A stretch of DNA of 36,361 nucleotides, from IMG/VR virus record IMGVR_UViG_3300013094_000138, positions 1 to 36,361 of that record. The stretch is one strand, 5' to 3'. Positions 852 through 29,673 of this stretch are shown here, piece after piece (within the stretch, counting starts at the first letter, position 1; every line of letters begins with the position of its first letter). Below the pieces are notes generated by a model. That model searched no databases. It was not told the DNA's origin and worked only from the letters and a program-made list of their open reading frames with translations. Position numbers and translations under genes: made by a program. The stretch is from a virus.

Positions 852-895
852 ATTTTAATCCTCTTACTATATTTAGCTAAGATAAATATGTTACT
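852..895. promoter_or_regulatory. 44-bp divergent intergenic region with two late-promoter-like motifs
   Basis: This short gap separates two divergently transcribed structural genes. On the minus strand GCTAAATA (877-870) lies 19 bases from the ATG at 851, with AAGAGGA between them, which is a normal late-promoter and ribosome-site layout. On the plus strand GATAAATA (881-888) matches the T4/cyanophage late consensus (TATAAATA/NATAAATA) but is only seven bases from the ATG at 896. That leaves no room for a leader with a ribosome-binding site. The two motifs sit back to back, three bases apart. Motif matching is by eye. Confidence 0.45.
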
Positions 896-3801: not shown

Positions 3802-4232
3802 AAGAATCAATAGTCTGTAGCGGTGCATTGTTTTATGCTAAAACAACTGGTCGATTTTTATTGTTACAGAAACGCCAAGGCAAACACGAAGGCACTTGGG
3901 GACTTGTAGGAGGTACCACTATAAGTGGTGAAACTCCCTGGGAAGGGTTGCAACGTGAGATACAGGAAGAAATCGGAAGTATTCCTGTTATAATTAAAAC
4001 TATTCCTTTAGAAACATTTGTCAGTAATGACAATGTGTTTAATTTTCATACTTACTTGTGCGTAATTGAAAATGAATTTGTCCCTGTTTTAAGTAACGAG
4101 CATCAAGGTTGGGCTTGGGCCACTATTGATCGAGCTCCTAAGCCATTGCATCAAGGTTTACGAAATAGTTTTTCTAGCAAAATTATTCGTACTAAACTAC
4201 AAACAGTATTTGATCTAGTTGATTTAATCTAA
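3783..4232 (+). CDS. Nudix hydrolase
   Basis: 149-residue Nudix-fold pyrophosphohydrolase, which hydrolyses a nucleoside diphosphate linked to another group using Mg2+ held by the Nudix box. The box is complete: G44, five residues, E50, seven residues, then R58-E59-I60-Q61-E62-E63-I64-G65 (consensus Gx5Ex7REUxEExGU; the final hydrophobic position is Ser66). It is preceded by 'GTWGLVGG' and by an N-terminal strand 'GALFYAKTTGRFLLLQKRQG', both normal for the fold. Substrate cannot be read; ADP-ribose, NADH, dinucleoside polyphosphates, dNTPs and capped RNA are all possible. T4 also has a Nudix enzyme (NudE), but not inside its neck operon. The start overlaps the end of gp15 by 19 bases in another frame, so expression is probably coupled to late structural genes. 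A hairpin terminator follows directly. Confidence 0.88.
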   Translation: MENSIIKESIVCSGALFYAKTTGRFLLLQKRQGKHEGTWGLVGGTTISGETPWEGLQREIQEEIGSIPVIIKTIPLETFVSNDNVFNFHTYLCVIENEFVPVLSNEHQGWAWATIDRAPKPLHQGLRNSFSSKIIRTKLQTVFDLVDLI

Positions 4233-9227: not shown

Positions 9228-9254
9228 TTATTTCTCCGAATCGTTTCTTAAGTG

Positions 9255-9262
9255 TATTTAGC
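9255..9262 (-). promoter_or_regulatory. Late-promoter-like GCTAAATA upstream of the 1654-residue protein gene
   Basis: GCTAAATA (read on the minus strand, 9262 to 9255) lies 27 bases upstream of the ATG at 9227, in the 57-base gap behind the preceding gene. The identical octamer precedes the gene starting at 851. It differs from the T4 late consensus TATAAATA at the first two positions. Assignment is by eye. Confidence 0.4.
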
Positions 9263-9284
9263 CAAGCCATTTCTTAGTTTTGCC

Positions 9285-10013
9285 TTATTGGCCCATGGCA
9301 AAATAACTGAGTGCAACTGCTATATTTTCTGAATATCGTTTAGTTGAGGCTTGGTTTTTAACTGAACTGTTCCATTTTTCGTCAGGTGTAGTCTGTCTAA
9401 GCACAGTAAAGGTACCTGTTGAAGGAGTTATTGCGCCAATAGTCATGTTATCTATACTGCCTGTGGCGTTTGGTTGAAATGACACTAGACTACCATCGCT
9501 AGGAGCAACTCTAAATGATTGTGTTCCTGTCAGTGCTATATTGCCCTGTAAGTTTATTGTCTGTCCAGTGGATCCCAAAGTTAAAGAACCTGGCGGACTG
9601 ATACTGATATTAGTGCTATTAAGTGTTATTGATCCATTTACTGTTAAGTTGGTAAATGTAGCAGACAAGGGTGTAATGGATCCTATAACTGTATTGTCAA
9701 TCGTACTAACAGTAGCTGGATTCCATACTGATGCAGTTGTTCCCGAAGTTAATTTAAATGCTCCATTTAAGGATACAGTTCCTTGTACTGATAATCCAGT
9801 CAAAGTTCCAGGAATAGTAGTAATAGATGCCCCCAATGCTGTCTGAGTAAGCAAAGGTGCGCCATTGTAACTGAGATAACTGCCCTGTGTTAGTTCTATC
9901 CTGTTACCAGTTACCGTGACTGTTTGAGTAACAAGATTACCACTTGAATCTACAATAAAATACGGACTTTCAAAACCGTAACTTGATCTTAATTGTTTAG
10001 CTACTGTGCTCAT
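9285..10013 (-). CDS. Small tail-fibre-like protein with two DNxxIG repeats
   Basis: 242-residue, Thr/Ser/Asn/Gly-rich protein of the fibre type. It carries two copies of a beta repeat: 'DNTVIGSITPLSATFTNLTV' at about residues 104-123 and 'DNMTIGAITPSTGTFTVLRQ' at about 187-206, each preceded by a short beta strand. This repeat is common in fibres of cyanophages and other marine phages. The C-terminus 'ASTKRYSENIAVALSYFAMG' resembles the short helix that closes many fibre proteins ('xTKxYVD...'). It is the last gene of a three-gene minus-strand run with the two following entries. The gap behind the upstream gene is 13 bases and no clear Shine-Dalgarno is visible. Fibre assignment is good; the precise position in the virion is unknown. 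Confidence 0.65.
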   Translation of the reverse strand: MSTVAKQLRSSYGFESPYFIVDSSGNLVTQTVTVTGNRIELTQGSYLSYNGAPLLTQTALGASITTIPGTLTGLSVQGTVSLNGAFKLTSGTTASVWNPATVSTIDNTVIGSITPLSATFTNLTVNGSITLNSTNISISPPGSLTLGSTGQTINLQGNIALTGTQSFRVAPSDGSLVSFQPNATGSIDNMTIGAITPSTGTFTVLRQTTPDEKWNSSVKNQASTKRYSENIAVALSYFAMGQ

Positions 10014-11893: not shown

Positions 11894-12898
11894 ATGACTG
11901 AAAGAGCTAAAGCATTTTTTATTAACGGTGGAGCCGGAAGAACTATTTGCGCTATACCAGCACTGGAAAAATATTACGAAGAAACTAGTAAAGATTTTAT
12001 TATAGTTTGTGAAGGTGGCACTGATATGTTCAAAGGACACCCTACATTATTTTCTCGAACCTACGATCATTGGCACAAAAATTTATTTGAAGAAAAATTA
12101 GTCAATATGGATCTAATTAGCCCCGAGCCTTACAGAGTTTGGGAATATTTCAATCAAAAATGTTCGATTGCACAGGCTTTTGATATCATCATCAATAATA
12201 AAGGCATACGACCCTTGCCAAGACCTACAATAAAAATGTCTAATGAAGAGATGTTTACAGGACACAACATAGTCAAAGAAGTAAAAGAAAAAACAAAAAA
12301 GGATGTTGTTGTTGTATTTCAACCATTTGGTCGCGGAGTTGTTTCGCAAAATAATGTTATTTTTGATTCCAGTGGTCGAAGTTTCGAAGCGCAACATGTA
12401 ATTAATATTATTAAGAAATTGCAGAAAAAATATGCAGTTATAATGATGAGTGAAATTGGTATAGATTTTAGCAAGCATGGTTGCAAAGACCCGGTAGCAT
12501 TTCCTCAAAATATGAATATCCGCCAATGGGCAGGAGTAATTGGAAATGCAGATTACTTTTTAGGCTGTGATAGTGTAGGGCAACACCTTGCTTATGCAAT
12601 GTACAAGCCTGCTAGTGTAGTGTTAGGCTCGACATTTGATGTAAATGTATCTTATCCCGAATGTGATATGTTTGAAGTGTTAGATGTAGGAGGAGATCGT
12701 AGAACTTATAGTCCTATTAGAATTACAATGGACGAAGTTGCTGATCGAGGAAATGACGGCATTATGAAAATGAATGAAGCTGTTGAAGATGCTATTATTA
12801 AATCTGTAGACACAGGTATTAAAAAATTTAAAAATAGTACGCTAGCAACACCTGAGATTCACGCTACAACTGCTGAACCTGCAAGTTGTGCAAGATAA
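11894..12898 (+). CDS. GT9-like glycosyltransferase (heptosyltransferase fold)
   Basis: 334-residue protein resembling glycosyltransferase family 9 (LPS heptosyltransferases such as WaaC/WaaF), two-domain GT-B enzymes that transfer a sugar from a nucleotide donor. The N-terminus 'FINGGAGRTICAIPALEKYY' aligns with the GT9 'xxxGDVLxTLPALxxx' loop. Near residues 222-248 'GCDSVGQHLAYAMYKPASVV' followed by 'LGSTF' matches the GT9 'DSGxxHLAAALGKPVVxLFG' signature, where the Asp binds the donor. At the usual catalytic Asp (WaaC Asp13) there is Arg, so activity or mechanism may differ. The ATG follows AGGAAC. It leads a three-gene plus-strand cassette, one base ahead of the SGNH gene. Acceptor is unknown: host glycan and virion protein are both possible. 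Confidence 0.7.
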   Translation: MTERAKAFFINGGAGRTICAIPALEKYYEETSKDFIIVCEGGTDMFKGHPTLFSRTYDHWHKNLFEEKLVNMDLISPEPYRVWEYFNQKCSIAQAFDIIINNKGIRPLPRPTIKMSNEEMFTGHNIVKEVKEKTKKDVVVVFQPFGRGVVSQNNVIFDSSGRSFEAQHVINIIKKLQKKYAVIMMSEIGIDFSKHGCKDPVAFPQNMNIRQWAGVIGNADYFLGCDSVGQHLAYAMYKPASVVLGSTFDVNVSYPECDMFEVLDVGGDRRTYSPIRITMDEVADRGNDGIMKMNEAVEDAIIKSVDTGIKKFKNSTLATPEIHATTAEPASCAR

Positions 12899-12899
12899 A

Positions 12900-13823
12900 A
12901 TGAAAAGATTGAGAATATTTGGCTGTAGCTACACCAGCTATGCATGGCCTAGCTATGCTGAATTGCTCTGTTATCATTTTGATGGAATAGAACAATGGGC
13001 TGAACCAGGATTAGGTAATAGGGCTATTGCAGAATTGGTATCAGAATGCCATGTTAGGAATCCTATAACTAAAGATGATACGGTGTTGATTCAATGGAGC
13101 AGTCATCTTCGTAACGATTGGTATCACGTTAATAATTTACCGGACAGATTGCCAGGATGGCAGACAGCAGGTAGTATTTTTAACTATAAAAATCAAACAA
13201 TATATGATAGAAAATGGATTGAAACCTTTTTCCATGAACCTGCTTATTTCATGCATACTTTAAATTTTATATCATTGGTACAAGGCCTACTCGATTCAAT
13301 AGGTTGTACATGGTATATGACCAGTATAGGAGATATTAGTAAATTGGGTGCCGATATCCGTGATCGTACAGGTTACGGTGAAAAAACTGGAGTTACTAAA
13401 TATGTTTCAAAAGAAAAAACAGCATGGGACATAATACCTCACTTAGCTGTTTATCGAGAACCATTGTTTGAAAATCGAAAAGATCGTTGGCTTACTCCGT
13501 TAGAATTGCATTGTCAAAAATATCCAGACTTAACATTTGATTTTTTAGATGAATATGGTGAAAGTTTTATAGATTTACACCCTAGTCCTGCACAGTCAAG
13601 GATTTACATTGAACAAGAAATGAAAAATAAGTTAGCATTACCGGATGAATATTTTAATCAACTCGATGATATTGTTTCTAAGATTATGAATATTCATAAG
13701 AAATATAAGTCTAATAAACGAGTATTCGAACATCACATAGGAAAACTGTTTAGAGACGAACCCCAAAGTAAAAAAATTTTCCGACCAAATTTAAATAACT
13801 TCGTTGAAAATACAGGAATATAA
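12900..13823 (+). CDS. SGNH/GDSL-like hydrolase (putative glycan esterase)
   Basis: 307 residues from the ATG at 12900; a GTG at 12888 would add four residues and overlap the previous gene, and neither start has a strong ribosome site. Block I is 'RIFGCSYT' with Ser10 as candidate nucleophile. A 'GLGNRAIAELV' segment (Gly39-Asn40) supplies oxyanion-hole-type residues. Asp225 and His227 in 'FIDLHPSPAQ' are candidates for the rest of the triad, although the spacing is D-x-H rather than the usual D-x-x-H. SGNH enzymes are often carbohydrate or acyl esterases. Between a glycosyltransferase and a carbamoyltransferase, a role in adding or removing an acyl group on a sugar is a sensible guess. No signal peptide is seen, so it should act in the cytoplasm or in the virion. 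Confidence 0.62.
   Translation: MKRLRIFGCSYTSYAWPSYAELLCYHFDGIEQWAEPGLGNRAIAELVSECHVRNPITKDDTVLIQWSSHLRNDWYHVNNLPDRLPGWQTAGSIFNYKNQTIYDRKWIETFFHEPAYFMHTLNFISLVQGLLDSIGCTWYMTSIGDISKLGADIRDRTGYGEKTGVTKYVSKEKTAWDIIPHLAVYREPLFENRKDRWLTPLELHCQKYPDLTFDFLDEYGESFIDLHPSPAQSRIYIEQEMKNKLALPDEYFNQLDDIVSKIMNIHKKYKSNKRVFEHHIGKLFRDEPQSKKIFRPNLNNFVENTGI
13814..13818 (+). promoter_or_regulatory. Ribosome binding site AGGAA that decides the carbamoyltransferase start
   Basis: AGGAA lies six bases before the ATG at 13825. An in-frame TTG at 13804 could extend the protein by seven residues but has no such site and would overlap the upstream gene, so the ATG is preferred. Confidence 0.65.
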
Positions 13824-13824
13824 A

Positions 13825-15642
13825 ATGACAAAGAAACTTTCAAGAGATATCTGGATTGCAGGTGTTGCTAGAGGACATAACAGCAGTGTTTGTCTACTAA
13901 AAAATGATGAAATTGTTTTTAGTATTGAAGAAGAACGGTTAAGCCGTAAAAAATATGACGGTGGACCGTTTGCTGCCATGATGGAGATTTTAGAATATAC
14001 AGATCATTTAGATTATCTTGTAATTGCACATACTCAAGCTCTAAAAGATACAGCAGGAAGAGTAGATTTTTCAGGCGATGACATTTATACAGGAATAGCA
14101 AGGAAACTAAATTTAATCAGTAGAAAAGAAAATCCTTATGAACATCCTCAAGTTATCGATCTAAGTCATATTCATCATAAATTGCATGCAGCCTGCGCAT
14201 TTTATCGATCAGGTTTTGACGAAGCCACTGCAGTTATTGTGGACGGAGCAGGAACTTTTATACCATTGACAGCAGGTAGAGAAAGTCTCACCGGTTGGGA
14301 AGTTGAAAGCGTTTATGAATGCACCTATCCTGATTGGTTCAAAACTGTCTATAAACACATAGGAACTCGTGGTCCATTAACTGGCGCTTTAGTGGAAGAA
14401 TTTGATAGTTCCATTTATGATGAACATGGACAAACTCACGAAGCACTAGTCACTGATAGAGCTGGAATTACTAAAGTTTACGAAGCTGTAACTCAATATT
14501 GCGGTTGGGATAGTATAGAAGCCGGGAAAACTATGGGTCTATTTCCTTACGGTAATCCTAATGATCAAATCCCTGCGTTATTTGATACAACTGGAATAGC
14601 ACCACTATCCAACAGAAATATAGTTGTTCCTACATATCCTAATGGTGCAGCTATTAACGCTAAATTATTTACATTCCTAAACGAAGAATCTACAGAAGAT
14701 GTTACACTTCTTCAAAGTCGTAGAGATTTAGCTTATGCTTGTCAAACGCAGACACAGGAACAAGTATTATTGTTAATTCGCAAAGCTGTAGAAAAAACTG
14801 GCATTAAGAAAGTAGTTCTCAGTGGCGGTTATGGATTAAATTGTGTGGCTAATTATTATTACCTGCAACATTTACAAAAAGACGGCATTGAACTATATGT
14901 TGAACCAATTAGTAACGATGCTGGAACAGCCATTGGAGCTGCTTTACTGGTACACAAAAAATATTTCATGTCTGGCCCTAATTTCCAAAATAAAAATCAT
15001 TGCAAAGATGGACTATATTTAGGTTTTGAATACAACTATTCCGATGACGAAATTAATCAGCTGGCTAGTAATTATAGTGCAGAAGTAACTGATGCCGGTT
15101 ATGCAGATGTTGTAGAATTACTGCTCAATAAAAATATTGTTACTATGTTCCAAGGTCGCAGCGAAAACGGGCCAAGAGCACTGGGAAATCGCAGTATCTT
15201 GTTTAATCCTACTTACGCTGATGGTAAAGATTTTGTAAATAGTGTAAAACATCGTGAGTATTTTAGACCATTTGCAGGCAGTATACTTCAGGATCATGTC
15301 CACGAGTGGTTTGATCTTAGAGGAATGAAAGACAGTCCTTATATGATGTATGCTGTAAACTGTAAAGAAGGGGTTGCTGAAAAAATACCTAGTATTATCC
15401 ATGTGGACGGAACTTGTAGGATTCAAACTGTTACTGAAGAACAAAATAAACATTTTTATGCACTTATATCTGAATTTTATAATCAGACAGGAGTACCAAT
15501 TTTGTTTAATACCAGTTTTAACTTAGGTGGCGATCCATTAGTGGAGACATTAGATGATGCGCTAGATACCCTAAGTCGATGCAGTATTGAATATTTGTAC
15601 TTACCAGAATATGGTAAATTAATTAAAATCAGTAATACCTAA
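13825..15642 (+). CDS. NodU/CmcH-family O-carbamoyltransferase
   Basis: 605-residue enzyme of the NodU/CmcH/TobZ family, which transfers a carbamoyl group from carbamoyl phosphate, via carbamoyl-AMP, to a hydroxyl, commonly on a sugar. The hallmark motifs are present: 'GHNSSVCLL' with 'EEERLSRKK' (residues ~17-46; the usual GHD is GHN here), 'HIHHKLHAACAFYRSGF' (His115, His117, His118, His121, candidate metal ligands) followed by 'VDGAG', 'GKTMGLFPYG' (~234-243), 'SGGYGLNCVAN' (~333-343), 'QGRSENGPRALGNRS' (~443-457), and 'NTSFNLGGDP' (~562-571) with a downstream 'DDAL'. Length is normal for the family and nothing looks truncated. It is the last gene of the plus-strand cassette and ends at a strong terminator. 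The substrate is unknown: a host surface glycan is most likely, a virion glycan or modified nucleoside possible. Confidence 0.9.
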   Translation: MTKKLSRDIWIAGVARGHNSSVCLLKNDEIVFSIEEERLSRKKYDGGPFAAMMEILEYTDHLDYLVIAHTQALKDTAGRVDFSGDDIYTGIARKLNLISRKENPYEHPQVIDLSHIHHKLHAACAFYRSGFDEATAVIVDGAGTFIPLTAGRESLTGWEVESVYECTYPDWFKTVYKHIGTRGPLTGALVEEFDSSIYDEHGQTHEALVTDRAGITKVYEAVTQYCGWDSIEAGKTMGLFPYGNPNDQIPALFDTTGIAPLSNRNIVVPTYPNGAAINAKLFTFLNEESTEDVTLLQSRRDLAYACQTQTQEQVLLLIRKAVEKTGIKKVVLSGGYGLNCVANYYYLQHLQKDGIELYVEPISNDAGTAIGAALLVHKKYFMSGPNFQNKNHCKDGLYLGFEYNYSDDEINQLASNYSAEVTDAGYADVVELLLNKNIVTMFQGRSENGPRALGNRSILFNPTYADGKDFVNSVKHREYFRPFAGSILQDHVHEWFDLRGMKDSPYMMYAVNCKEGVAEKIPSIIHVDGTCRIQTVTEEQNKHFYALISEFYNQTGVPILFNTSFNLGGDPLVETLDDALDTLSRCSIEYLYLPEYGKLIKISNT

Positions 15643-15670
15643 AAAAAAGCAGCGTAAGCTGCTTTTTTTA
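15641..15670. terminator. Bidirectional intrinsic terminator between convergent genes
   Basis: A perfect 12-bp stem (15642-15653 with 15658-15669, AAAAAAAGCAGC) with loop GTAA combines a GC core with A- and T-tracts, so it terminates on both strands. The left arm contains the end of the carbamoyltransferase stop codon and the right arm overlaps the stop codon of the minus-strand gene that ends at 15668. Confidence 0.9.
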
Positions 15671-16627
15671 TGGATGATTAGGATCTGGGTCAAATAACGG
15701 ATCGGTAGTAGTGGGTTTATTTGTACCGTATATGCCATTAGGATCATCGTAAGGTTGGACCTTCCAAGGATGTGTAGTTGGAGCCGGACTAAAAGTTATG
15801 GCTGCATTGCCATTTATACTTAAAGGGGTAGCTACTAGTGCGGAACTCAGCGTAATTTGATTGCTAGAAATACTTACAACAGTTGTATGACTAGCAAAAA
15901 TGTCTGGACAACCAAAAGTAGTAATGCCTACATCCATTCCTACAGTGATACCAGTAGCATCTGTAAGTTGAATGATCGTTTGACCTTGTGTATTAGTAGG
16001 AGATGCTGCAGTCAAATCGATTGTTTTGAGCATGTTAGTTGCACCATGAACTTGAGGTAAATCTCTAAGTTTTTGTCTGTAAGTTTGCCAAGCAGTTTTT
16101 GTGGCTGAAGGAATATCATCGGCTGTGGCTATATGATCTGTAGATGATAGTATACCATTCCTCCATCCTCTAATATGATTCCAAGTTACATGAGGTTCCC
16201 TCCATGGTGTGGACCATGTATCTGTTGCAGGATCATATGTTACAGTCTCGTGATCATGTGTGTGATCAGGTGGTGGAGGATCTGGTCTAGTGTAAACAGC
16301 ACCGTCAGCTAATGTTTCATCCGCTGTTGACAATTTATCATAATGATATCTGCTAGCGTCTGCGCCAAATATATGGCACATTTTGGGATTTGTTGTGCAA
16401 TCTACTTTGACCAGATGACAGTCTAACGGGGCTGGATAGTCTGGACCATCATCATCTTCGGTAAGAAAATGACCTTGTTGCCATTTTAATGTTTCTTTGT
16501 TTACAAATACCCAAATTTTATCAGGGCCATTATAAGTCCATGTGCCTGTTTTTTTCAAATTATTTGTTGTCAACAAATAATCATCTGGTAAATCATAAGT
16601 AAATGTTTGACTAATAATTTTGTTCAT
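15668..16627 (-). CDS. Tail-assembly-chaperone-like protein with C-terminal beta module (copy 2)
   Basis: 319 residues, paralogue of the gene at 18182-19165. The N-terminal part has 'TGTWTYNGPDKIWVFVNKET' (residues ~26-45) and 'GHFLTEDDDGPDYPAP'. The middle has 'HVTWNHIRGWRNGILSSTD' then 'IPSATKTAWQTYRQKLRDLP' (~148-193). The 'RNxxLxxTD ... W..YRQ.LRDLP' pattern is the signature of phage tail-assembly/fibre chaperone families (Phage_tail_APC, XkdW-like). After residue ~200 comes a virion-type beta module ('DATGITVGMDVGI', 'VVSISSNQITLSSALVATPL'), which a pure chaperone should not need. It follows the cysteine-rich protein ending at 16631 by three bases, with only a weak GGAT ribosome site. 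It probably folds or escorts that adhesin; a structural role is also possible. Confidence 0.6.
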   Translation of the reverse strand: MNKIISQTFTYDLPDDYLLTTNNLKKTGTWTYNGPDKIWVFVNKETLKWQQGHFLTEDDDGPDYPAPLDCHLVKVDCTTNPKMCHIFGADASRYHYDKLSTADETLADGAVYTRPDPPPPDHTHDHETVTYDPATDTWSTPWREPHVTWNHIRGWRNGILSSTDHIATADDIPSATKTAWQTYRQKLRDLPQVHGATNMLKTIDLTAASPTNTQGQTIIQLTDATGITVGMDVGITTFGCPDIFASHTTVVSISSNQITLSSALVATPLSINGNAAITFSPAPTTHPWKVQPYDDPNGIYGTNKPTTTDPLFDPDPNHP

Positions 16628-16630
16628 TTT

Positions 16631-17398
16631 TTATCCGTATGTTACTGAAACTTGTCCTTGGTTACCGAATCCGCCCCAGCAGCAACCGCCTCCATAACTA
16701 GTGGCATTTTGTCCGCCGCCACCTGGCACAATGCCATAACCATATACTCCATTGGCTCCACCGCCAGTTCCACATTGTCCACCGTTGATTACCGGACCTG
16801 AAACTGTAGCAGCTGCTACTGCTGTATATCCATAAGAATATGAAAAACAATACTGAGTAGTTAAAGCTGAACCGTTAGCACCGCTTATATTAATATCGCC
16901 GCCACAGGCACAGCAATAAAAACACATTACACAAGGAATGTAATACCCATCACCAGCAAAACAATGAGTATCACCACTTCTAGCTGGCTGTGCACAAAAA
17001 TTACTCAATCCTGGACCGTTTACATAACTGGTATAGCCTCCGCATCCATAGCATGCTCCAGCGCAGTTGCCTGAACCTGCAGCACAAATTGTATAACTGG
17101 CACCAGCTAGACCGCCTGTTGTTCCGCAATTAATTGTTTTTATAGCATATGATCCTGCACCTCCTCCTTGAGTTGACTGCATGCAACAGCATGCGCCACC
17201 TCCACCAGATCCTCCGCCCCACATTTCAAAAGTTATCCATGTGGTTCCAGCTGGTGCTACAAAATTACAACAGAATCCACCATTAGCTGCCGACTGTGGA
17301 CTGGTATTACAAACACTGAATTCTTTAGGAGTATTAGTGGTTAATATCGTTGTTGAGGGAACTGTGAACGCTATCGTTGCTAAATTAATAGTTGCCAT
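16631..17398 (-). CDS. Cysteine- and glycine-rich adhesin-like virion protein A
   Basis: 255 residues with 22 cysteines. After a short beta N-terminus comes 'NGGFCCNFVAPAGTTWITFE', then 'MWGGGSGGGGACCC' (residues ~59-72), 'GGGAGSYAIKTI', 'YTICAAGSGNCAGACYGCGG', and at the C-terminus 'GGGCCWGGFGNQGQVSVTYG'. The layout 'PAGTxxxxFExWGGGGGGG ... GGxGxxGxVxxTYG' is that of glycine-rich domains found at tips of phage fibres and other surface proteins, which can form polyglycine-helix sandwiches. The cysteine load is unusual for a cytoplasmically made protein and suggests disulphide stabilisation after release. There is no signal peptide. AGGAA precedes the ATG. It lies between paralogue B and a chaperone-like gene. 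Receptor binding is inferred, not shown. Confidence 0.7.
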   Translation of the reverse strand: MATINLATIAFTVPSTTILTTNTPKEFSVCNTSPQSAANGGFCCNFVAPAGTTWITFEMWGGGSGGGGACCCMQSTQGGGAGSYAIKTINCGTTGGLAGASYTICAAGSGNCAGACYGCGGYTSYVNGPGLSNFCAQPARSGDTHCFAGDGYYIPCVMCFYCCACGGDINISGANGSALTTQYCFSYSYGYTAVAAATVSGPVINGGQCGTGGGANGVYGYGIVPGGGGQNATSYGGGCCWGGFGNQGQVSVTYG

Positions 17399-17411
17399 TA
17401 TTATATTCCTA

Positions 17412-18167
17412 TCATTTGTAAGTTATGATTACAAGTCCGCCCGCACCGTGACCGCCTTGATAACAGTTACCGCCGTTAGCGCTAGCGCCTGATCCGCCGC
17501 CTCCCGGAAAACTAGCGCATCCGCCGCGAGCGTCTCCATAAGTATTTCCGCACTGGTCCAAACTCATCCTGACCCCAGCGCCAATGTAAGTGGGCTCAGA
17601 ACCGTAGTCCCAACTCATATATCCACAAGTAGATGCGCCTGCTCCTGAAACTAGTCCGCAAATTGCTAAATCAAAACCACAAGCACTTCCCGCTTGACAA
17701 CTTACTGCGCCACAACTGTTATTACTGAAAAAACAACCAGTTACTCCGCAAAATCCACCTGAAGCGCACAAACACAACGGATAACTAGCTGTCGCATTGC
17801 AAGCGTAACTAGCATATCCGCAACCGCCATTACAGTTGCTACTGCAACCAGTTGAACCACCAGCGCAGATTGTATATTGTTGTGTTGGAACTACTTGAAT
17901 AGTTTTTCTAGCATAGCTGCCCGAGCCGCCGCTGAAACATTGTTGTTGACAGCAACAACTGCCACCACCACCGCCGCCGCCGCCCCAGACTTCAAATTTA
18001 GCCCATGTAGCGCCTGACGGAACTGTCCATAAACAGCATTGTCCACCGTTACTTGCCGCGTTGGTGCTGGTATTATAAATGTAAATTACATTATATGGAT
18101 TGCCGTATGATAATGGTTGTGTAAATCTACTATCGGGAAATAATGTTGCTAAATTAGTCGATGCCAT
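17412..18167 (-). CDS. Cysteine- and glycine-rich adhesin-like virion protein B
   Basis: 251 residues, 23 cysteines. It has the same plan as A: 'NGGQCCLWTVPSGATWAKFE', 'VWGGGGGGGGSCCCQQQC' (residues ~59-76), 'GGSGSYARKTIQV', 'YTICAGGSTGCSSNCNGGCG', a divergent cysteine-studded middle ('LCLCASGGFCGVTGCFFSNN'), then 'FPGGGGSGASANGGNC' and 'GGHGAGGLVIITYK' at the end. The conserved frame (first CC, the CCC after the Gly run, the 'GCGYxSY' segment, the final beta strand) shows common descent with A and C, while the middle has diverged strongly, as expected for a receptor-contacting tip. AGGAAA lies before the ATG. It sits between the chaperone-like gene copy 1 and protein A. The fibre-tip role is an inference. 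Confidence 0.7.
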   Translation of the reverse strand: MASTNLATLFPDSRFTQPLSYGNPYNVIYIYNTSTNAASNGGQCCLWTVPSGATWAKFEVWGGGGGGGGSCCCQQQCFSGGSGSYARKTIQVVPTQQYTICAGGSTGCSSNCNGGCGYASYACNATASYPLCLCASGGFCGVTGCFFSNNSCGAVSCQAGSACGFDLAICGLVSGAGASTCGYMSWDYGSEPTYIGAGVRMSLDQCGNTYGDARGGCASFPGGGGSGASANGGNCYQGGHGAGGLVIITYK

Positions 18168-18181
18168 TTATATATTTCCTA

Positions 18182-19165
18182 TTAGTTTGCTGGTCGAACA
18201 CTAGCCAAAATTGTCAATTTTATATCAATACCAGTAATGGTACCTGTACTGACTGTGCTGGTAATTGGTCCGCCGCCTGCTGTTGACGATAATTGGAAAG
18301 CTGTAGTTGTAGGAGAACCAACAACATAATAAGTCGCACCTGATGTATATCCAGTTATACTACCGCTGCTGAATGTTCCTGTAATCTTTACAGGCTGACC
18401 CACAGTTGGTGCTACGATTAACGCATCACAAGAAAACACGCCTGTGGTACTGGTAATCTGTGGGTTTTTAACTGGTGTATACAGTACTGGAGGAATGGCA
18501 GCATTAGATTTATCATTGTGCAATTCATCTGGTCTTAATGGAGGAATCACCTCCCAAGGATTAACTCCATTGGCTTGATGTGTAGCAGTTAAATCTCTCA
18601 TCCATTGCCTATAGGCTGCCCAGTGTGCTTTATCTGATGGACTTGATTTGTTATACAATTCATCAGTTCCTGCTAAATTACCGTTTCTCCAAGTAAGTAA
18701 TTCTTCCCATGTCATATGAGGTTTTTTCCAAGGATACGGTTTAATAAATGTATTAGTAGTTGCATCATATTGAATTTCTGTTAATTCATATGTATGATCT
18801 GGAGGAGTTGGTTCAGGCCATAAGTACTGGCTGTCGTCAGGATGTGTCTTTTGTCCGTGAGGCAATGTAGCATAATCTATTTCTCCATGACACAAACTGG
18901 CAATATCTGGATTTACATTAGCATCTACTAAAACTTTAGTTTGACCTTCGGGTGTAGGAATATCTGCACCGTCATCTGCTTCAGTATAGTGGAATCTGCC
19001 GATAATTTTCTTTGTAGTATTATCTACAAATATCCAAATTTTGTCTGGACCTGTATAAGTCCAAGTGCCTGTTAGATTTTTACTATTAGTTTGAGCCAAA
19101 TAATAATCTGCAACAGGATATGTAAATGTTACAGATACCTTGGTATTTTTTGATTGATCACCCAT
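18182..19165 (-). CDS. Tail-assembly-chaperone-like protein with C-terminal beta module (copy 1)
   Basis: 327 residues, paralogous to the gene at 15668-16627. Shared elements are 'TGTWTYTGPDKIWIFVDNTT' (residues ~31-50), 'FHYTEADDGADIPTP', 'HMTWEELLTWRNGNLAGTDE' and 'AHWAAYRQWMRDLTATHQ' (~151-198). The 'WRNGxLxxTD ... W.aYRQ..RDL' pattern points to the phage tail-assembly chaperone superfamily. The last ~90 residues form a beta module ('GQPVKITGTFSSGS', 'GATYYVVGSPTTTAFQLSST') of the type used in the virion fibres. AGGAT precedes the ATG; the gene starts 12 bases after cysteine-rich protein C ends. The pairing with a glycine-rich adhesin repeats at the other end of this block. Alternatively it is itself a virion component. 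Confidence 0.6.
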   Translation of the reverse strand: MGDQSKNTKVSVTFTYPVADYYLAQTNSKNLTGTWTYTGPDKIWIFVDNTTKKIIGRFHYTEADDGADIPTPEGQTKVLVDANVNPDIASLCHGEIDYATLPHGQKTHPDDSQYLWPEPTPPDHTYELTEIQYDATTNTFIKPYPWKKPHMTWEELLTWRNGNLAGTDELYNKSSPSDKAHWAAYRQWMRDLTATHQANGVNPWEVIPPLRPDELHNDKSNAAIPPVLYTPVKNPQITSTTGVFSCDALIVAPTVGQPVKITGTFSSGSITGYTSGATYYVVGSPTTTAFQLSSTAGGGPITSTVSTGTITGIDIKLTILASVRPAN

Positions 19166-19177
19166 TTTTTATCCTTT

Positions 19178-19978
19178 TTAACCGTATGTAATTAATACTA
19201 GTCCGCTAGATCCCCATTGACCCCAACAGCATCCGCCACCGCAACCTGTACCAGCATTTCCTGGACCGCCTGGCCACGGTATAGCTTGTGAGCCGCTGCT
19301 ACCAAATTTACAACAACCCTCTATGGTCATCGAGGTGCAACAAGGATCTAGACTGTGTCTAGCATTTGGTTGATATTTAATAGCACCTTGAACTAATTGT
19401 ACTGTAAACTGAGCGCAGAAATAATTGTCCATTTGACCTAAAGAAGTACCTTGAAAAGCAATATCATATGCTGAAGGTCCGCAACAAATTAAAGTATTGC
19501 AGGCATACTGACAAATGCCGGTACAGGGATTACAACCTATACCATGCCAACACCCAGTGCATCCACCAGAACCGCCTACTGCACAAGCAATAGTTGAACC
19601 TGCTGAATTTGTTACAAAACTAGGAAATCCGCATGTTCCGCAACAACCACAGGAACAACATCCTGAACCAGCTGAACAGACATTATAGTAAGGGCAAAGA
19701 CTTCCGCTAACTGTTTTTTTGACATAAAACCCAGGGTTCGGTGAACGATAATTGCCCTGACAACAGCATCCACCACCACCATCTCCGCCAGCACCCCACA
19801 GTTCAAATGTTATATATGTGGTACAGCTATTTGGTTTGAAGCAACAGCAAGCACCACCATTTTGGACTCCGTCATCGTTATGACCACTAGTCATCACAGC
19901 TATTTGATTAAATCGATAGGTAGCAGCCGCGGATGTTGGATTTTGAATTATTAAACCTGACAGACTAGATGTTGCCAT
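19178..19978 (-). CDS. Cysteine- and glycine-rich adhesin-like virion protein C
   Basis: 266 residues and 32 cysteines (12 %), the most cysteine-rich of the three. Motifs in order: 'NGGACCCFKPNSCTTYITFE', 'LWGAGGDGGGGCCCQG' (residues ~60-75), 'GFYVKKTVSG', 'YNVCSAGSGCCSCGCCGTCG', 'GGSGGCTGCWHGIGCNPCTG', 'NTLICCG', 'LDPCCTSMTIEGCC', and a C-terminus 'GCGGGCCWGQWGSSGLVLIT' close to that of A. The Gly-rich frame with a beta N-cap and a final strand suits a fibre-tip adhesin; the many CC and CCC motifs suggest extensive disulphides or, less likely, metal binding. The ribosome site GGCGGA lies inside the preceding gene, so translation is probably coupled. It leads the adhesin/chaperone block. Confidence 0.7.
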   Translation of the reverse strand: MATSSLSGLIIQNPTSAAATYRFNQIAVMTSGHNDDGVQNGGACCCFKPNSCTTYITFELWGAGGDGGGGCCCQGNYRSPNPGFYVKKTVSGSLCPYYNVCSAGSGCCSCGCCGTCGFPSFVTNSAGSTIACAVGGSGGCTGCWHGIGCNPCTGICQYACNTLICCGPSAYDIAFQGTSLGQMDNYFCAQFTVQLVQGAIKYQPNARHSLDPCCTSMTIEGCCKFGSSGSQAIPWPGGPGNAGTGCGGGCCWGQWGSSGLVLITYG

Positions 19979-19979
19979 A

Positions 19980-20309
19980 TTAATGTCCGCCTAATAACCA
20001 ACCATATGCACTGGAATAGATTAGTGTAACAGCACAATAATTAACGTTTAATGTTAAATTACCATTGTTATTGGCAATGTAAGCAGCACCATTTTGAGCA
20101 ACTGTGCAATTGCTTGAACTAAACGCCCCAGTAGCATCAATTATTTGAACTGTATCTCCGTCTAAGCTAGTCGAAGTTGCCGGCAATGTAATTGTTTGCC
20201 CGCCAGCTGTACAAATAATTCTGTCGTTTGGTAGTGCAGTATATGCGACACCGGCATTATAACGAATAACCGATCCAGCTGTTCCTGTTGTTGTAATATA
20301 TCGTCCCAT
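19980..20309 (-). CDS. Small fibre/decoration-type beta protein
   Basis: 109 residues. 'YTALPNDRIICTAGGQTITL' leads into 'GDTVQIIDATGAFSSSNCTV', 'GAAYIANNNGNLTLN' and 'VTLIYSSAYGWLLGGH'. This is a familiar fold pattern from phage tail fibres: 'ITLP ... GDxVxIxDxxGxFxxNxxTV ... LxLxxxxxxVTLxYxxxxGW'. The protein is a single such domain, complete but unfused. A CATAAATA late-promoter motif lies at 20338-20331 and AAAGGAA precedes the ATG, so it may begin a transcription unit covering the adhesin/chaperone genes. Likely a fibre-associated or decoration protein. Confidence 0.6.
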   Translation of the reverse strand: MGRYITTTGTAGSVIRYNAGVAYTALPNDRIICTAGGQTITLPATSTSLDGDTVQIIDATGAFSSSNCTVAQNGAAYIANNNGNLTLNVNYCAVTLIYSSAYGWLLGGH

Positions 20310-20330: not shown

Positions 20331-20338
20331 TATTTATG
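20331..20338 (-). promoter_or_regulatory. Late-promoter motif CATAAATA ahead of the adhesin/chaperone block
   Basis: CATAAATA on the minus strand (20338 to 20331) matches the NATAAATA late form, lies 21 bases before the ATG at 20309, and overlaps the stop codon of the preceding gene. It could drive the downstream adhesin and chaperone genes as a unit. Confidence 0.5.
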
Positions 20339-20660
20339 TCGTTGATGTTTCAATTCCGTATACTACAGCATTGATACCAGTAATGCTACCCCTAAAAAGT
20401 AAGCTATAACCAGCATTAACCACAATTCCAGTTCGTTCCAACACTCCATGTGGTAGTAATTCTGTTTCATACTCTAAAAATTCACCTGTAGCAATTGTCG
20501 AACTGCTGGCGCACAGCCCTAATCTAACAGTTGAATCTGAATTTGTCCTATTAACAATACTTACACTGGCTACTGTAAAAGTCCCTGCCGGAGCTGTGTA
20601 AAGCAAAGTATCCGTTGCTGCTGAGCCAAGATCTACTGCTCCTAATCTTCCTGTTGCCAT
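20334..20660 (-). CDS. Small conserved virion-type protein, tandem copy 2
   Basis: 108 residues. 'MATGRLGAVDLGSAATDTLL' then 'YTAPAGTFTVASVSIVNRTN', 'EYETELLPHGVLERTGIVVN' and the ending 'YGIETSTT'. I recognise this as a widespread small protein of large tailed phages, found among fibre genes and probably a single beta-sandwich; no biochemical role is known to me. It is a clear tandem paralogue of the gene at 20675-21001: same length, same first seven residues, same motif order. The leader CGGAGATAAAAT is identical to that of its copy. Differences between copies are concentrated in the middle ('VRLGLCASSSTIATGE' versus 'IRMAISTSSSTMASNE'). Confidence 0.65.
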   Translation of the reverse strand: MATGRLGAVDLGSAATDTLLYTAPAGTFTVASVSIVNRTNSDSTVRLGLCASSSTIATGEFLEYETELLPHGVLERTGIVVNAGYSLLFRGSITGINAVVYGIETSTT

Positions 20661-21015
20661 ATTTTATCTCCGTTTTAAGTTGTTGAAGTTTCAATTCCGT
20701 AAGCTACAAAATTTACCAGCAATGCGCTAGATCTAACCAATATAGAATATCCAGCGTTTATCACAAGTCCAGTGCGCTCTAACACTCCATGCGATAAAAT
20801 TTCTGTTTCATATTCTATGTATTCATTTGAAGCCATTGTACTAGAACTTGTGCTGATAGCCATACGAATGGTCACAGGACTATTACTTCTATTTGCTACG
20901 CTAACAGTGGCCACTGTAAAATACCCAGCAGGTGCTGTATACAGTAGTGTATCTGTTGCTGCTACTGGAATATCTACAATGCCTAATCTTCCTGTTGCCA
21001 TATTTTATCTCCGTT
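20641..21015. repeat. 34-bp exact direct repeat spanning the starts of the tandem 108-residue genes
   Basis: Positions 20641-20674 and 20982-21015 are identical over 34 bases. They cover the first codons, the start codon and the ribosome-binding leader of the two tandem genes, 341 bases apart. Further similarity continues in the genes at lower identity ('GTTTCAATTCCGTA' near both gene ends). The pattern indicates duplication of a whole gene plus its leader. Confidence 0.8.
20675..21001 (-). CDS. Small conserved virion-type protein, tandem copy 1
   Basis: 108 residues, paralogue of the next gene downstream. It opens with 'MATGRLGIVDIPVAATDTLL', then 'YTAPAGYFTVATVSVANRSN', 'EYETEILSHGVLERTGLVIN' and 'AYGIETSTT'. 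The fold is probably a small beta sandwich, and its place among fibre genes suggests a fibre-attached or virion-surface subunit. The leader CGGAGATAAAAT provides GGAG at normal spacing. It lies 12 bases downstream of the 2876-residue fibre gene. The family is recognised by pattern; function is not established. Confidence 0.65.
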   Translation of the reverse strand: MATGRLGIVDIPVAATDTLLYTAPAGYFTVATVSVANRSNSPVTIRMAISTSSSTMASNEYIEYETEILSHGVLERTGLVINAGYSILVRSSALLVNFVAYGIETSTT

Positions 21016-24000
21016 AATTTAATAATAAAAAGTTCATAGCTAGCGGACTTCCATCAATGCCGCCTACAAAATACATTTTGTTTGCTACTTTAATTTGCCC
21101 GCCTGTTGTGGTGCTAATAGTGTTGCCTGCAACATAAATTATACCAGCTGTTAGTGTATTTACAATCAAAGTGCCACCACCACCACCAATTTGGCTTGTA
21201 ATATATGATTTAATAGCTTTTTGAGTTGGTAAAATGTTGTCACTATTTGCTGTAAAGTAAGGATCGGTAGAAAAACTGCTAATCGTAGCACTATTTGTAC
21301 CTAAACTTACTGAACCAATTGTTAAACTGTTTAATCCAGATACATTAAATGCACTAGCATTTAGGGTAGTAACACCTGTAGCCTGTTGTACACTAAACAA
21401 ATTACCTACATTAAAATTACCGTCTTGGTCAGTACTTGTAAAGAATGTACGACCACCATTATTGCTTACAGTTTGATAATTGCTGTCAGGATTAATTAAC
21501 GGTATTCCTGGATAATTAGTATTAGAAAAATTACCAGTTCCAACATTTAAGAAATCATGTCCTGTTAATCGAACTTGGCTATATTTTAATCTAATTGAAA
21601 TAGCAGCTCCATTGATAGGAGCATTACTAGTTGTTAGACTTGGATTAATCTGGAAAGTTGCTGTGTAAGGATAAAGGCCACCACCTGTGCCAACTAAATT
21701 GTTAATCTGCACTAGTTTGTATACTGTGCTATTGTTGGCAAATATTACATTGGATCCTGCTGTAGGAACTGTATAAATTCCAGACACATTTACAATAGTA
21801 GATGGTTGATAGATATCAGCATAACCATTTGTAGTAACGCTTGCACTTGCTGTAGCATAGCTAGTGCCTCTATTAGTATAAGTTGGATTTGCTATGGCCC
21901 CAGTACCAGTTCTTACAGTCCATGTTGCTGAAACAGTTTGATTTGGATCCGTTATAGTCATAGTAGGAGCGCTAGCATATCCGCTACCTGGTTCCCAAAC
22001 TCTAAATGATGTTATAGTAGTAGAAGCTACTGCAGCTCTAGCTTGTGCTGTACAACCAGTAGTTATACTTGCAAAACTAGTGCTGTTGTATGGTAAAGTA
22101 ACCCATAAAGGTACACTATTAGGATTGCCAAATGCCAATACATTATTTCCGCCGACACTTAGTGGCATTGTTCTTGTTGTCCACAACAATCCATCTTCTG
22201 ATGTGGCTCCTACAGTAGTTGTATCGGCAGATGTTGCAAAGAATAAACCTTGACCGTAACGAACACGAGTCCAATTTTGAACTGTTGGTAAAGGAAATAC
22301 GCTAGCATACCATGTTATGCCATCAAAACTATAAGCTGTTGTAGTAGATTCACTTGCTACAGCTACAAATTTACCCTTACCAAATGTTACACTGTTCCAT
22401 GCTAAAGCGCTTGGCAATCCATTGCTTGCTGTCCATACTGATGCATTAGTAGAAGTACTGTATGCGCTGCTGGTAGTGCCTGTTGCTATGGCTACCCATG
22501 TGCCATTTCCATATGCAATACTGGTCCAATTTAAACTAGATGGTAGGCCACCAGAACTAGATGACCAGCTAGAACTAGGATTATTACTGTAAACTAAATT
22601 AGTTCCGCCATATTGAATGGCTGCAAAATAACCATTTCCGTATGCAACACTTGACCAATTTACACTAGCCCCAAGGGTACTGCCAGCACTCCATGTTACT
22701 CCGCCATTTGTACTGACTGCAGAATTATTAGATCCATTTTGTACAGCTACCCATGTAGTCGTTCCGCTAATTACTCCAGATGCAATACTGGTCCAATTAC
22801 TGGCTGCAGGCAAAGCGCCTCCAGCTGTCCATGTAGTACCATTAGTACTATATTGAGAAGTTGTTGCACCAGTTGCTATAGCAACATAATTACCGCCTTG
22901 ACCTTGTCCAGTATAGGTAAAATTATTAATAACACCACTATTTGTAGTTGTTGTTGTATTAGTAACAGTAATTGTGATATTATTAGTGCTAGTGCCTCCT
23001 AAACTTGTACCTGCTAAAGTCAATGTATCGCCAATTACATAATTTTGGCCACCGCTTACTAAAGTTACAACATAAGCAATACCTGTTCTTACTACAGAAA
23101 ATGTAGCTAGTGTACCAGTGCCACCTGTTGCGCTCACCGAACTATAAGTAGCATTTATATCGCCATATGCACAATCGATCCATGCAGCACTGGTTTGTGT
23201 ACCAGTAACAGTAGTAAACCCTGGACCAGTTAATAAACATCGAGGTTCGATGATATAAGTTGTAGTCGTATCTAAATTACTTGATATAGCAGTTCCTGGA
23301 AGAACATGGTCAAAGCCTGCTGCATATAATCCAATTGATACCGAACCGGTGCTGGTTACTGTAAGAGCGCTTGTAGCAGTATTAGTCGATCCCACACTGA
23401 GTATAGTGCTATTTGGCACCACTGCCATAGCATAGTATAATGTGGCAGGTGCTAAATTTGATCCTACAGTTGCTGCTAGATAGATAGGCATTCCGTTATA
23501 GATGCCAGCTGTACTACCTACAGTAAGTGTATTTTGTGTACCAGTTATTGTAGCACTTGACTGTGTTTGACTAACACTGATTGTATAATTTGAAGTACTA
23601 GTTGGTGTTCCTGATCCGCCTTGATTCAAACCATAAGTACCTAAACCGCCAGCTGTATAAAAACTAGTAGAGCCTGAAACAGCTCCAACTAGATTCTGAC
23701 TTATAGTGATTACGCCTGTATATATGTTAATTGCTGTCACATAAGTAGCGGCTGGCAGTCCAGAGATAGGAAGAATAAATTGTCCTGTCGAAACAGTATA
23801 TAATGATCCAACTGTAAAACTGGTTAAAGTCAAAGTATTTTGTCCGTTTGTGCCAGTTACTGTGCAAGTTGCTAAAGCAGTAGATCCTGTAGCATTTATC
23901 TGTCCAGTAATGTAAGTTCCAGCTGTTACACTACCACCCACTAGCAATCCGCCAATTGCAAGATTGCTTGCGGATACTGATGCTGATAACAATGTGCTCG

Positions 24001-27000
24001 ATATGTTAGTTACAGTACCAGCAGTTGGAGTAGATCCCCCAGTAACTGTGTAGGTAATGCTAGTTTGACTAACTATACTTTTCACTAACACACTTGTTGG
24101 ACTTCCGCCATACAGTGTACCAGAACCTGTAGTAGCAGTTAGTGGCATACCAACAATAAAACTACTAGTTGAACTCATGCCAGTGATTGTTGCTGTCCAA
24201 GGACCTGTACCGGTTATAGACCCTATAGTACCAGTGGTGCTCAGTGTTGTACTAGCTAAAGCTGAAGTACCAATTGATCCTGTTGTAATAGCTGTAATGT
24301 ATGTTCCTGCTGTAATTGCACCTGTGCTGGTTAAAATCATGCCAACATTGAATGTGTTAGTAATTGTACCAGTAGGAACAAAAGCGCCTGGAATATTTGG
24401 AATTCCTACTGCTAACAAAACACCAGTTGCACTGGCTGTGCCATTAGTTGTTGCTGTAATAGTTTGTGTACCAAAACTTTCTTTAGCTAATAATGCAAGT
24501 TTACTACCATTGTTATAATTTGCTATAAAGCCATATTGTCCCACACCAGTTCCACCTGTAAGATACAGTCGTAAACCTAAATATGCACTACTAACATTTA
24601 AGTCAGTGGCCGCAATTGTAAACTGAGCGTTTGTACCATTTTGTCCAGTATTTGCAGCCGTCATGTAATTCAAGCCACCTGTCAACCATCGAGTCTCAAA
24701 TACAGCATTGTCACGAAATTCATTAGCTACCGTAGTGGCACCATAACCGGTGCTACTGGCAAAAGCAAATGTTCCTGAATTGGCTTGACTACCTGCAGTT
24801 GCAAATTCTACTCGATAAATTTTGTTTAAAGCATCAGTGACCACGTTGGAAATAATAGGGCCAGTGTATCTGTTGTTAACTTGAGCTGTAATTGGTATTT
24901 CAGTTGCATCGTACCCTTCTGCAACTACTCCATAACTACCGTATGAGCTATTTCCATTTGTAGCTCGGATTTTACCACCAGCTTCTGCTAGATAACCGAT
25001 TTGATTATAATAACTGAATACACTAACACATTCGGTCAGTGACCCTGGTCCGTAGCACCATACACCGATACCATCACTTAATACTTGTGTAAAGTCATTA
25101 CAGACAATACTATGATTACCGCCCTGATGTAGTGTTCCATCAATTTTTAATCCGACACATCCTGTTCCAAAAGTTGTTACATTTTGAACATACGGACTTT
25201 TTCTAATAATCCATGCACTGGTATCTTGAGGACCTGTACCAGGGTCTAGACTAACATATGCTCCTGCAGTTGGTCGGCTTGTACCATAACTTGCAGAGTA
25301 AGCAGTGCCAGTTAGGCTGGCTGTTGATAATGTAATATATTTTCCTGAAAGTGCATTATCATACGAGCTAGACAATGTTAAAGTAGTTACAGTTAAAACT
25401 TGCCCAACATAATAAGTTGTAGCAGAAATACCGCCTCCACCTGTACCAGTAACTGTAAATGTATTTCCTACAGCTAAACCAGTTGTACTAGTAATTGTGG
25501 CCACACCGCCTGTACCGGATGTACCAAAAGTTCCTACTGCTGTTGCTGTAATATTTCCAGTAGCTGTCACTAATGGTATGCCTACTTTTCCAGTTAAACC
25601 GTACAAAGTCATATTTCTTATGCCTGAACCGTTTCTGGTATAGAACATATTGCCTGATACATACCCTGCTGTAATTGTTAAACTAGAACCAGTTAGAATA
25701 TTCATCGAAGGAGTTGTAGAATAAATGCTGTAAGTTCCAGTTAAACCAGGAATAAAGAAATATGCAGTGGTAGAAAATCCGGTAAAAGAATTGGTTAATT
25801 CATTACTAAGTGTCACTGTAGTTCCGTTGACAGCTGTAACAAATGTATTAGCAGGAATACCAGAAATAGCTGAACCATTTCCTGATATAAAATAACCTGG
25901 TTGAATATTAGAATTAGCTGAACTTAAAGTTATATTGTAAGATCCACTAGTACCATTAAATGTTTGACTTGTATTGCTGCTACCACTGGCGCCAGTCAGC
26001 TGAGATGTAATTTGAATAGGAGCAGTTATTATACCACCGCTGATAAAAGATCCTACTAAAAATTGTCCATAAGCTGTAAATGTAGTGCTTGTAGGGCTTG
26101 AAGTTGTAAAACTTATGTAAGAACCTGCCAACGCATTAGCATATGTGCTAGATAGTGTTAATGTGGTAGCTGTCAGCAATTGACCTACCCAGTAAACACC
26201 AGCAGAAAGGCCGCCGCCACCAGTGCCAGTTACAACAAATACATGTCCTGTATTCAGTCCTGCAGTAGTGGCTACAGTAACTACGCCACCAGAACTAGTG
26301 GTTCCATATGCGCCTGAAGTAGTTGCTGAAATAGTTTGACTTGTTAAAATATTATCAATACTGGTAATAGTCAGAGTAGTGTTGCTAATTGCCGCTCCTC
26401 CGGTAGATGATCCTGCTGTAGAGAAAGGTTGTACAACAACTCCTCTAAGTTCATCGCCGACTAACGCAGTATTTTCTGGCACTGTAATTGGTAAAATTTC
26501 ATTATAGGTGCCATTTTTAATAAAGATTGTACTAGTGACTCCTGAATTTGGTGCTGGAATCGCTGTTGTGCTTTGATTTGTTAGTGCTGTAGTAATTATA
26601 GACATTAACGAACTGACTAAAGTTGATGCGCCAGTTTCAGCTGTGTAATTTGCATCAATAACTTGGCTAATTACAGAACCTGCTATAGTTCCTCCACTAC
26701 TATAAGTTGCTGTATTTGAACTGGCAACCACCACACTGGTCTGACTTAGAGCAATAACTTTATAACTGCCATTATAACTACTAGGACTTACGCCTGAAAC
26801 AGTTATGGTTTCGCCAATTACAAATGGACTGTTTGTTTGTGAGGCAAATGTATAAGTTACTTCACCGTTGAGCCCGCTTGCACCAGTTATACCTAAGCTA
26901 GTTACTCCACCGCTACCGCCTGATGTGTTCTGATATATGGTTCCCGGAGCTGTATTTGCCAAAACATTGCTTGTTAACAAACTTGATAGTTTTGATAATG

Positions 27001-29644: not shown

Positions 29645-29662
29645 TTTAATATTCCTATGATA

Positions 29663-29670
29663 TATTTATA
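29663..29670 (-). promoter_or_regulatory. Perfect T4-type late promoter TATAAATA
   Basis: TATAAATA read on the minus strand (29670 to 29663) is an exact match to the T4 late promoter. It lies in the 29-base gap between the two giant fibre genes, 18 bases before the ATG at 29644, with AGGAA between. It should give the 2876-residue gene its own late transcript. Confidence 0.7.
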
Positions 29671-29673
29671 TTC

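Follow-up and report, generated by a model that had tools for sequence, protein, structure and literature searches.

Three cysteine-rich paralogues and their family

The window, the whole stretch of DNA analysed here, is the 36,361-nucleotide virus record IMGVR_UViG_3300013094_000138 from IMG/VR. Between positions 16631 and 19978 it encodes three proteins (A, B and C) that we interpret as cysteine-rich, receptor-binding tips of tail fibres. The initial annotation had described them as paralogues unusually dense in cysteine, and a recount confirmed the open reading frames (ORFs), their lengths and their cysteine numbers:

16631-17398, minus strand: protein A, third adhesin of the operon; 255 residues, 22 cysteines; phrog_4205 (E = 1.3e-26); 43% identical to B (E = 1e-27)
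17412-18167, minus strand: protein B, second adhesin; 251 residues, 23 cysteines; phrog_4205 (E = 2.4e-24); Pfam Gly_rich_2 above the cut-off
19178-19978, minus strand: protein C, first adhesin of the operon; 266 residues, 32 cysteines; phrog_4205 (E = 4.2e-16); in the position-1 clade of the family tree

The cysteine content of the three proteins is 8.6-12.0%. Across the window's 19 remaining genes the mean is only 0.64% (71 of 11,097 residues), and each of the three counts is therefore far beyond chance (binomial P = 4e-18 to 3e-30 each). A and C align to B over nearly their full lengths, C with 35% identity (E = 2.5e-14), which bears out the paralogy. The motifs noted at first sight, NGG-x-CC, a WG-glycine run followed by CCC and a final TYG or TYK, were found in all three.

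All three proteins match the profile of PHROG 4205, a family of unknown function, over nearly their full lengths. In Pfam, B matches Gly_rich_2 (PF21722; cut-off 24.3 bits) with 38.3 bits, A scores 12.6 bits and C gives no match. Neither A nor B gave a match when the phage collection was searched with tblastn, probably owing to the low-complexity filter. The family was instead reached through a neighbouring chaperone-like gene, which led to cultured Synechococcus phages, and then by profile searches. Tandem triplets encoding proteins of 259-311 residues with 9-12% cysteine lie at the equivalent locus in S-SSM7 (S-SSM7_114-116), S-SSM6a, Sf-FS3 (Sf-FS3_97-99) and S-CAM1 (S-CAM1_105-107). S-CAM3 also has a triplet, and P-SSM2 has two copies (P-SSM2_304/306). 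These proteins of T4-like cyanophages, assigned to PHROG 4205 or PHROG 35878 (function unknown) and all annotated as 'hypothetical', resemble the window set in sequence, cysteine content, tandem arrangement and neighbours.

A profile scan of IMG/VR found 80 loci with about 245 family members, all with 6-13% cysteine. In the 59 non-redundant complete loci the family median is 10.0%; the remaining ORFs of 200 residues or more in these loci (274) contain 1.16% cysteine, and none exceeds 3.7%. There are three copies in 53 of the 59, two in five (P-SSM2, L011, L036, L073 and L088) and four in one (L078), so a rule of always exactly three copies was rejected. In a tree of 174 proteins, the first, second and third copies each group into clades or near-clades inside the main lineages, and the lineages are separate from each other. 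Each lineage thus keeps three distinct copies, either because triplication was repeated or because copies were homogenised within lineages.

Contigs of cellular genomes gave five matches only, all on contigs of metagenome-assembled genomes (MAGs). Because all five carry the same phage cluster, they do not point to a cellular source of the family. The MAGs concerned (L105-L109) are assigned to Rhodobacteraceae, Actinomycetota, Flavobacteriales and Euryarchaeota, and the phage cluster probably reached them by binning contamination.

The initial annotation knew of no described set of adhesins with such cysteine density. Within the library of papers searched, we also found no published description, although the proteins themselves are already catalogued as cyanophage hypotheticals and in PHROGs of unknown function. 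The family is thus a real, strongly selected and previously undescribed cysteine-rich variant of glycine-rich fibre tips, whose members are catalogued and widespread. Host recognition is the likely function of these 'hypothetical' proteins, both in marine T4-like cyanophages and in the second, jumbo-phage-like lineage to which the window belongs.

Predicted fold and comparison with known fibre tips

The AlphaFold2 (AF2) model of B, built with 113 homologues, has a predicted local distance difference test (pLDDT) score of 89.3 and a predicted template modelling (pTM) score of 0.84. The best Foldseek match of the model in the PDB is the tail tip Qa/Qb of mycobacteriophage Bxb1 (9d93_Qb, E = 7.9e-8), which shares only 21-22% sequence identity with B over the fold alignment. 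The Pam3 fibre (7ypx, E = 2.7e-7, template modelling (TM) score 0.58) and the glycine-rich domain of the receptors ALK/LTK, which resembles tumour necrosis factor (TNF; E = 5e-4), were also found. Among predicted viral proteins, the matches include proteins of S-CAM3 and P-SSM2, many phage proteins labelled 'glycine-rich domain' and Syn9 gp38 (E = 1.4e-9). Sequence searches of the PDB returned the glycine-rich region of RemZ alone (E = 0.0012).

Pam3 gp24 offers an architectural parallel. It is a trimer in which a TNF-like domain continues as a glycine-rich lattice, whose distal ends vary and presumably bind the receptor; gp24 requires the chaperone gp25 (PMC9608196). B shares the predicted TNF-like and glycine-rich fold, and a chaperone-type gene adjoins the adhesins in the window as well. 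Unlike gp24, the proteins of the window are separate short products encoded near giant fibre genes, occur as three paralogues and are rich in cysteine. Salmonella phage S16 gp38 also carries a lattice of glycine-rich loops at the fibre tip, a likeness that we draw through the comparison in PMC9608196, but its middle domain is a beta-helix where the window type has a TNF-like domain. S16 gp38 is not among the Foldseek matches listed, and the S16/T2 gp38 adhesin family gave no match among the Pfam or PHROG hits of A, B and C.

The model of B provides good support for a TNF-like sandwich continued by a glycine-rich loop lattice, as in tips of the Pam3 gp24 type. Both the Foldseek matches (Bxb1 tail tip, Pam3 fibre) and the tail-fibre genes around A, B and C support the glycine-rich adhesin frame proposed in the initial annotation. 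A receptor-binding role of A, B and C in the tail-fibre tip is well supported, and they would sit at the very tip.

The same fold occurs outside the family without the cysteines. Syn9 gp38 has the predicted fold of B and a similar locus behind a fibre gene, but it contains 0.8% cysteine and belongs to the tail-fibre PHROG 863. The Sinorhizobium phage Phosso has the same domain with no cysteine in the matched stretches. Since these relatives share the fold with almost no cysteine, the cysteines of the family are an addition to an established fold and are dispensable for folding. Beside Syn9 gp38 lies gp36 (L102, 2856-3806), another candidate for a glycine-rich tip, with 35% glycine and an intermediate 2.5% cysteine.

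Selection on the cysteines and their possible roles

Cysteine is the most conserved residue in the window's lineage, with a pairwise identity of 69%, ahead of glycine (66%) and tryptophan (45%). In the cyanophage-type lineage it again ranks first (89%; glycine 79%). At the same time, 46% of aligned cysteine codon pairs in the window's lineage differ between TGT and TGC, about as random codon use would give. The glycine codon GGT and the cysteine codon TGT are one base apart, and mutational drift from one to the other in repetitive DNA could in principle enrich cysteine by accident. However, retention of cysteine as the most conserved residue while its silent codons are saturated refutes such an accident, to which we attach practically no weight, and the cysteine pattern is common to deeply diverged phages. 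When cysteine positions were compared across homologues, as the initial annotation had proposed, they proved conserved and not scattered within the family. The conserved positions include a CC in the first core strand, the CCC that follows the WG-glycine run and, as single cysteines, B101, B134, B181 and B206.

In the AF2 model of B, cysteines lie in strands as well as in the glycine-rich loops. Such a distribution, and cysteine counts that show no parity, would suit cysteine serving as a small, mostly unpaired residue that packs the lattice and the strands. We consider such a structural role of free thiols quite unlikely: in relatives the corresponding places are taken by other residues and the fold stays intact, and cysteine is kept more strictly than glycine even though free thiols oxidise easily outside the cell.

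The question raised by these data is why about 10% cysteine, so strictly kept, is found only in the host-touching part of proteins made in a reducing cytoplasm. We think it somewhat probable that A, B and C are chaperone-folded, receptor-binding fibre tips whose cysteines form disulfides after lysis. Each adhesin would consist of a TNF-like beta-sandwich running into a bundle of glycine-rich loops, as in Pam3 gp24, and the adjacent tail-fibre-assembly chaperones may assist its folding, during which the cysteines would stay reduced in the host cytoplasm. Disulfides would form upon virion release and fix the floppy glycine-rich loops in place, probably linking adjacent subunits too, to give a rigid tip whose loop ends are variable. 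The virion of Agrobacterium phage Milano, with a disulfide network in its sheath, baseplate and neck and 2.1% cysteine in its structural proteins (PMC10811340), is a precedent for disulfides that stabilise a virion assembled in a bacterium. At about 10% cysteine here, post-lysis disulfides would be an extreme example of a virus that is hardened covalently once it has left the cell.

Several results weigh against post-lysis disulfides in fibre tips. Against solved fibres, the B model reaches moderate global TM scores (0.5-0.58), and the root-mean-square deviations are high. Cysteine counts show no bias toward even numbers, either per chain or per triplet; because odd counts are as frequent as even ones, not all cysteines can be in intrachain pairs. 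Phylogeny-aware coupling between cysteine pairs is weak. The raw correlation between B76 and B179 (r = 0.98) was rejected as evidence of disulfide partners since it follows lineage, and no pair stood out on the tree. We found no virion proteomes for carrier phages, and S-SM1, S-PM2 and S-TIM4, which have proteomes, do not have the family. The model of the chaperone-like protein encoded at 15668-16627 has no Foldseek match in the PDB at E ≤ 0.001, and Pam3 gp25 is not among its top 50 matches. Finally, the strong enrichment of CC (833 observed, 462 expected) and CCC (199 observed, 42 expected) would fit metal sites built from thiolates no less than disulfides between strands.

Metal binding is a reading in its own right, in which Zn, Cu, Fe or an Fe-S cluster would be coordinated by groups of thiolates where the glycine-rich loops end, either for stability or to exploit the metal uptake receptors of the host. 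Besides the CC and CCC motifs, CxC and CxxC are mildly enriched over shuffled sequences, histidine is enriched next to cysteine over the whole set, odd cysteine counts are no obstacle, and one report mentions iron-binding domains proposed for the fibre of a marine phage (PMC11705849). However, the window's lineage has no conserved histidine or acidic ligand, histidine being its least conserved residue (10%), and no Pfam metal-binding domain matched at E ≤ 1. Moreover, 22-32 cysteines per chain exceed the need of one or two sites. We therefore regard metal-binding tips as unlikely.

Disulfide chemistry could also serve a redox switch. The tip would be reduced, and inactive or flexible, in the host and would become oxidised and folded outside it; re-reduction at the host surface might then trigger infection. 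This chemistry is the same as that of post-lysis hardening, and the baseplate disulfides of Milano must be reduced before contraction (PMC10811340). Oxidation is unneeded for folding, though, given that close structural relatives fold without cysteine, and the sequences show no sign of two states. We judge the switch improbable, about as much so as the packing role of free thiols.

The post-lysis disulfide reading leaves room for different subunit arrangements. The three paralogues may be three types of tip or, as their conserved number hints, subunits of one mixed trimer. In its strongest form, the tip would be a hetero-trimer cross-linked by disulfides, in which every paralogue is obligate and none can replace another, and it would be locked only after release. 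A mixed trimer agrees less well with phages that have two copies, P-SSM2 among them, and with the additional chaperone gene of the window's locus type. We hold the strong form to be doubtful, albeit with some chance of being right. If true, each fibre would present three different receptor-binding surfaces, which would be a new way of building a phage adhesin. The cultured carriers S-SSM7, S-CAM1 and P-SSM2 make the disulfide question practical to address.

Neighbouring genes and phage background

The adhesin genes are surrounded by the following genes:

13804-15642, plus strand: Nol/TobZ-type carbamoyltransferase; Pfam Carbam_trans_C (E = 2e-58)
15668-16627, minus strand: tail-fibre chaperone-like protein 2; 319 residues; Pfam Phage_tail_APC above the cut-off (E = 5.7e-9); AF2 pLDDT 89; extra C-terminal beta domain
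18182-19165, minus strand: tail-fibre chaperone-like protein 1; 327 residues, 0.6% cysteine; phrog_9740 (E = 6e-19), tail fiber assembly phrog_4912 (E = 6e-6), Phage_tail_APC below the cut-off; same place in 27 loci
19980-20309, minus strand: small fibre-type protein; 109 residues; phrog_31104 (E = 2e-12), tail fiber phrog_972; phmmer homologues in 63 sequences
20334-20660 and 20675-21001, minus strand: two tandem, similar tail-fibre-type proteins; 108 residues each; phrog_11338, tail fiber protein
21014-35712, minus strand: two giant tail-fibre proteins; 2876 and 2012 residues; phrog_9851, tail fiber protein (E = 1.6e-155 and 2.8e-155)

The cysteine-poor gene at 18182-19165, between B and C, had been overlooked in the initial annotation; it is related to the gene at 15668-16627. 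Chaperone-type genes adjoin the adhesins in nearly all loci. Two gene orders prevail: three adhesin genes followed by one chaperone gene (52 loci) and, in 27 loci including the window's type, adhesin, chaperone, two adhesins, chaperone. The T4-like cyanophages accordingly have one chaperone gene where the window has two. The giant fibre proteins, encoded upstream of the adhesins in the same direction, are likely the shafts. The C-terminal beta domain of the protein encoded at 15668-16627 (residues ~200-300) is weakly similar to phage tail tube and tailspike domains, and on the strength of this modelled likeness the protein may stay in the virion.

The carbamoyltransferase gene lies downstream of the adhesins in 27 of the 27 loci with at least 4.5 kb of flank on that side. 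The window's enzyme shares 61-65% identity with its counterparts in Sf-FS3 and S-SSM7, both of which have cysteine-rich triplets, and the gene is present in 4 of 4 cultured carriers vs 3 of 10 non-carrier cyanophages. It might modify sugars of the fibre or of the host surface. In the window, it runs opposite to the fibre genes together with a phrog_8954 gene and an unknown gene (11894-15642). Two other loci (L005 and L006) have 2OG-Fe(II)/prolyl hydroxylase-like genes downstream of the adhesins, and S-SSM7 has a tryptophan halogenase gene near its adhesin genes; these are possible enzymes of fibre-protein modification.

The window's gp15 is closest to those of two jumbo phages, Phosso (38%), its best match among cultured phages, and then the Pseudomonas phage PA5oct (31%), and the gene order gp14-gp15-MutT is that of PA5oct. 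The contigs of the window's lineage share this gp15. Assignment of the window to the Kyanoviridae cyanophages was thus unsupported. A cyanobacterial host found no support from psbA or psbD, neither of which was detected in 22 related contigs, all of them fragments. Judged by its sequence, the window is a fragment of jumbo-phage-like character and has its adhesin cassette in common with cyanophages. Because the adhesins and the carbamoyltransferase resemble those of cyanophages while gp15 resembles that of jumbo phages, the data are consistent with exchange of the cassette between the two groups. The near-constant three copies and the constant link to the carbamoyltransferase also point to a cassette passed between unrelated phages.

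Elsewhere in the window, neck genes gp13, gp14 and gp15 and the MutT gene occupy positions 63-4232, and a virion structural protein of 1654 residues (phrog_5838) is encoded beside a 242-residue protein whose match to the G8 domain is borderline (4263-10013).

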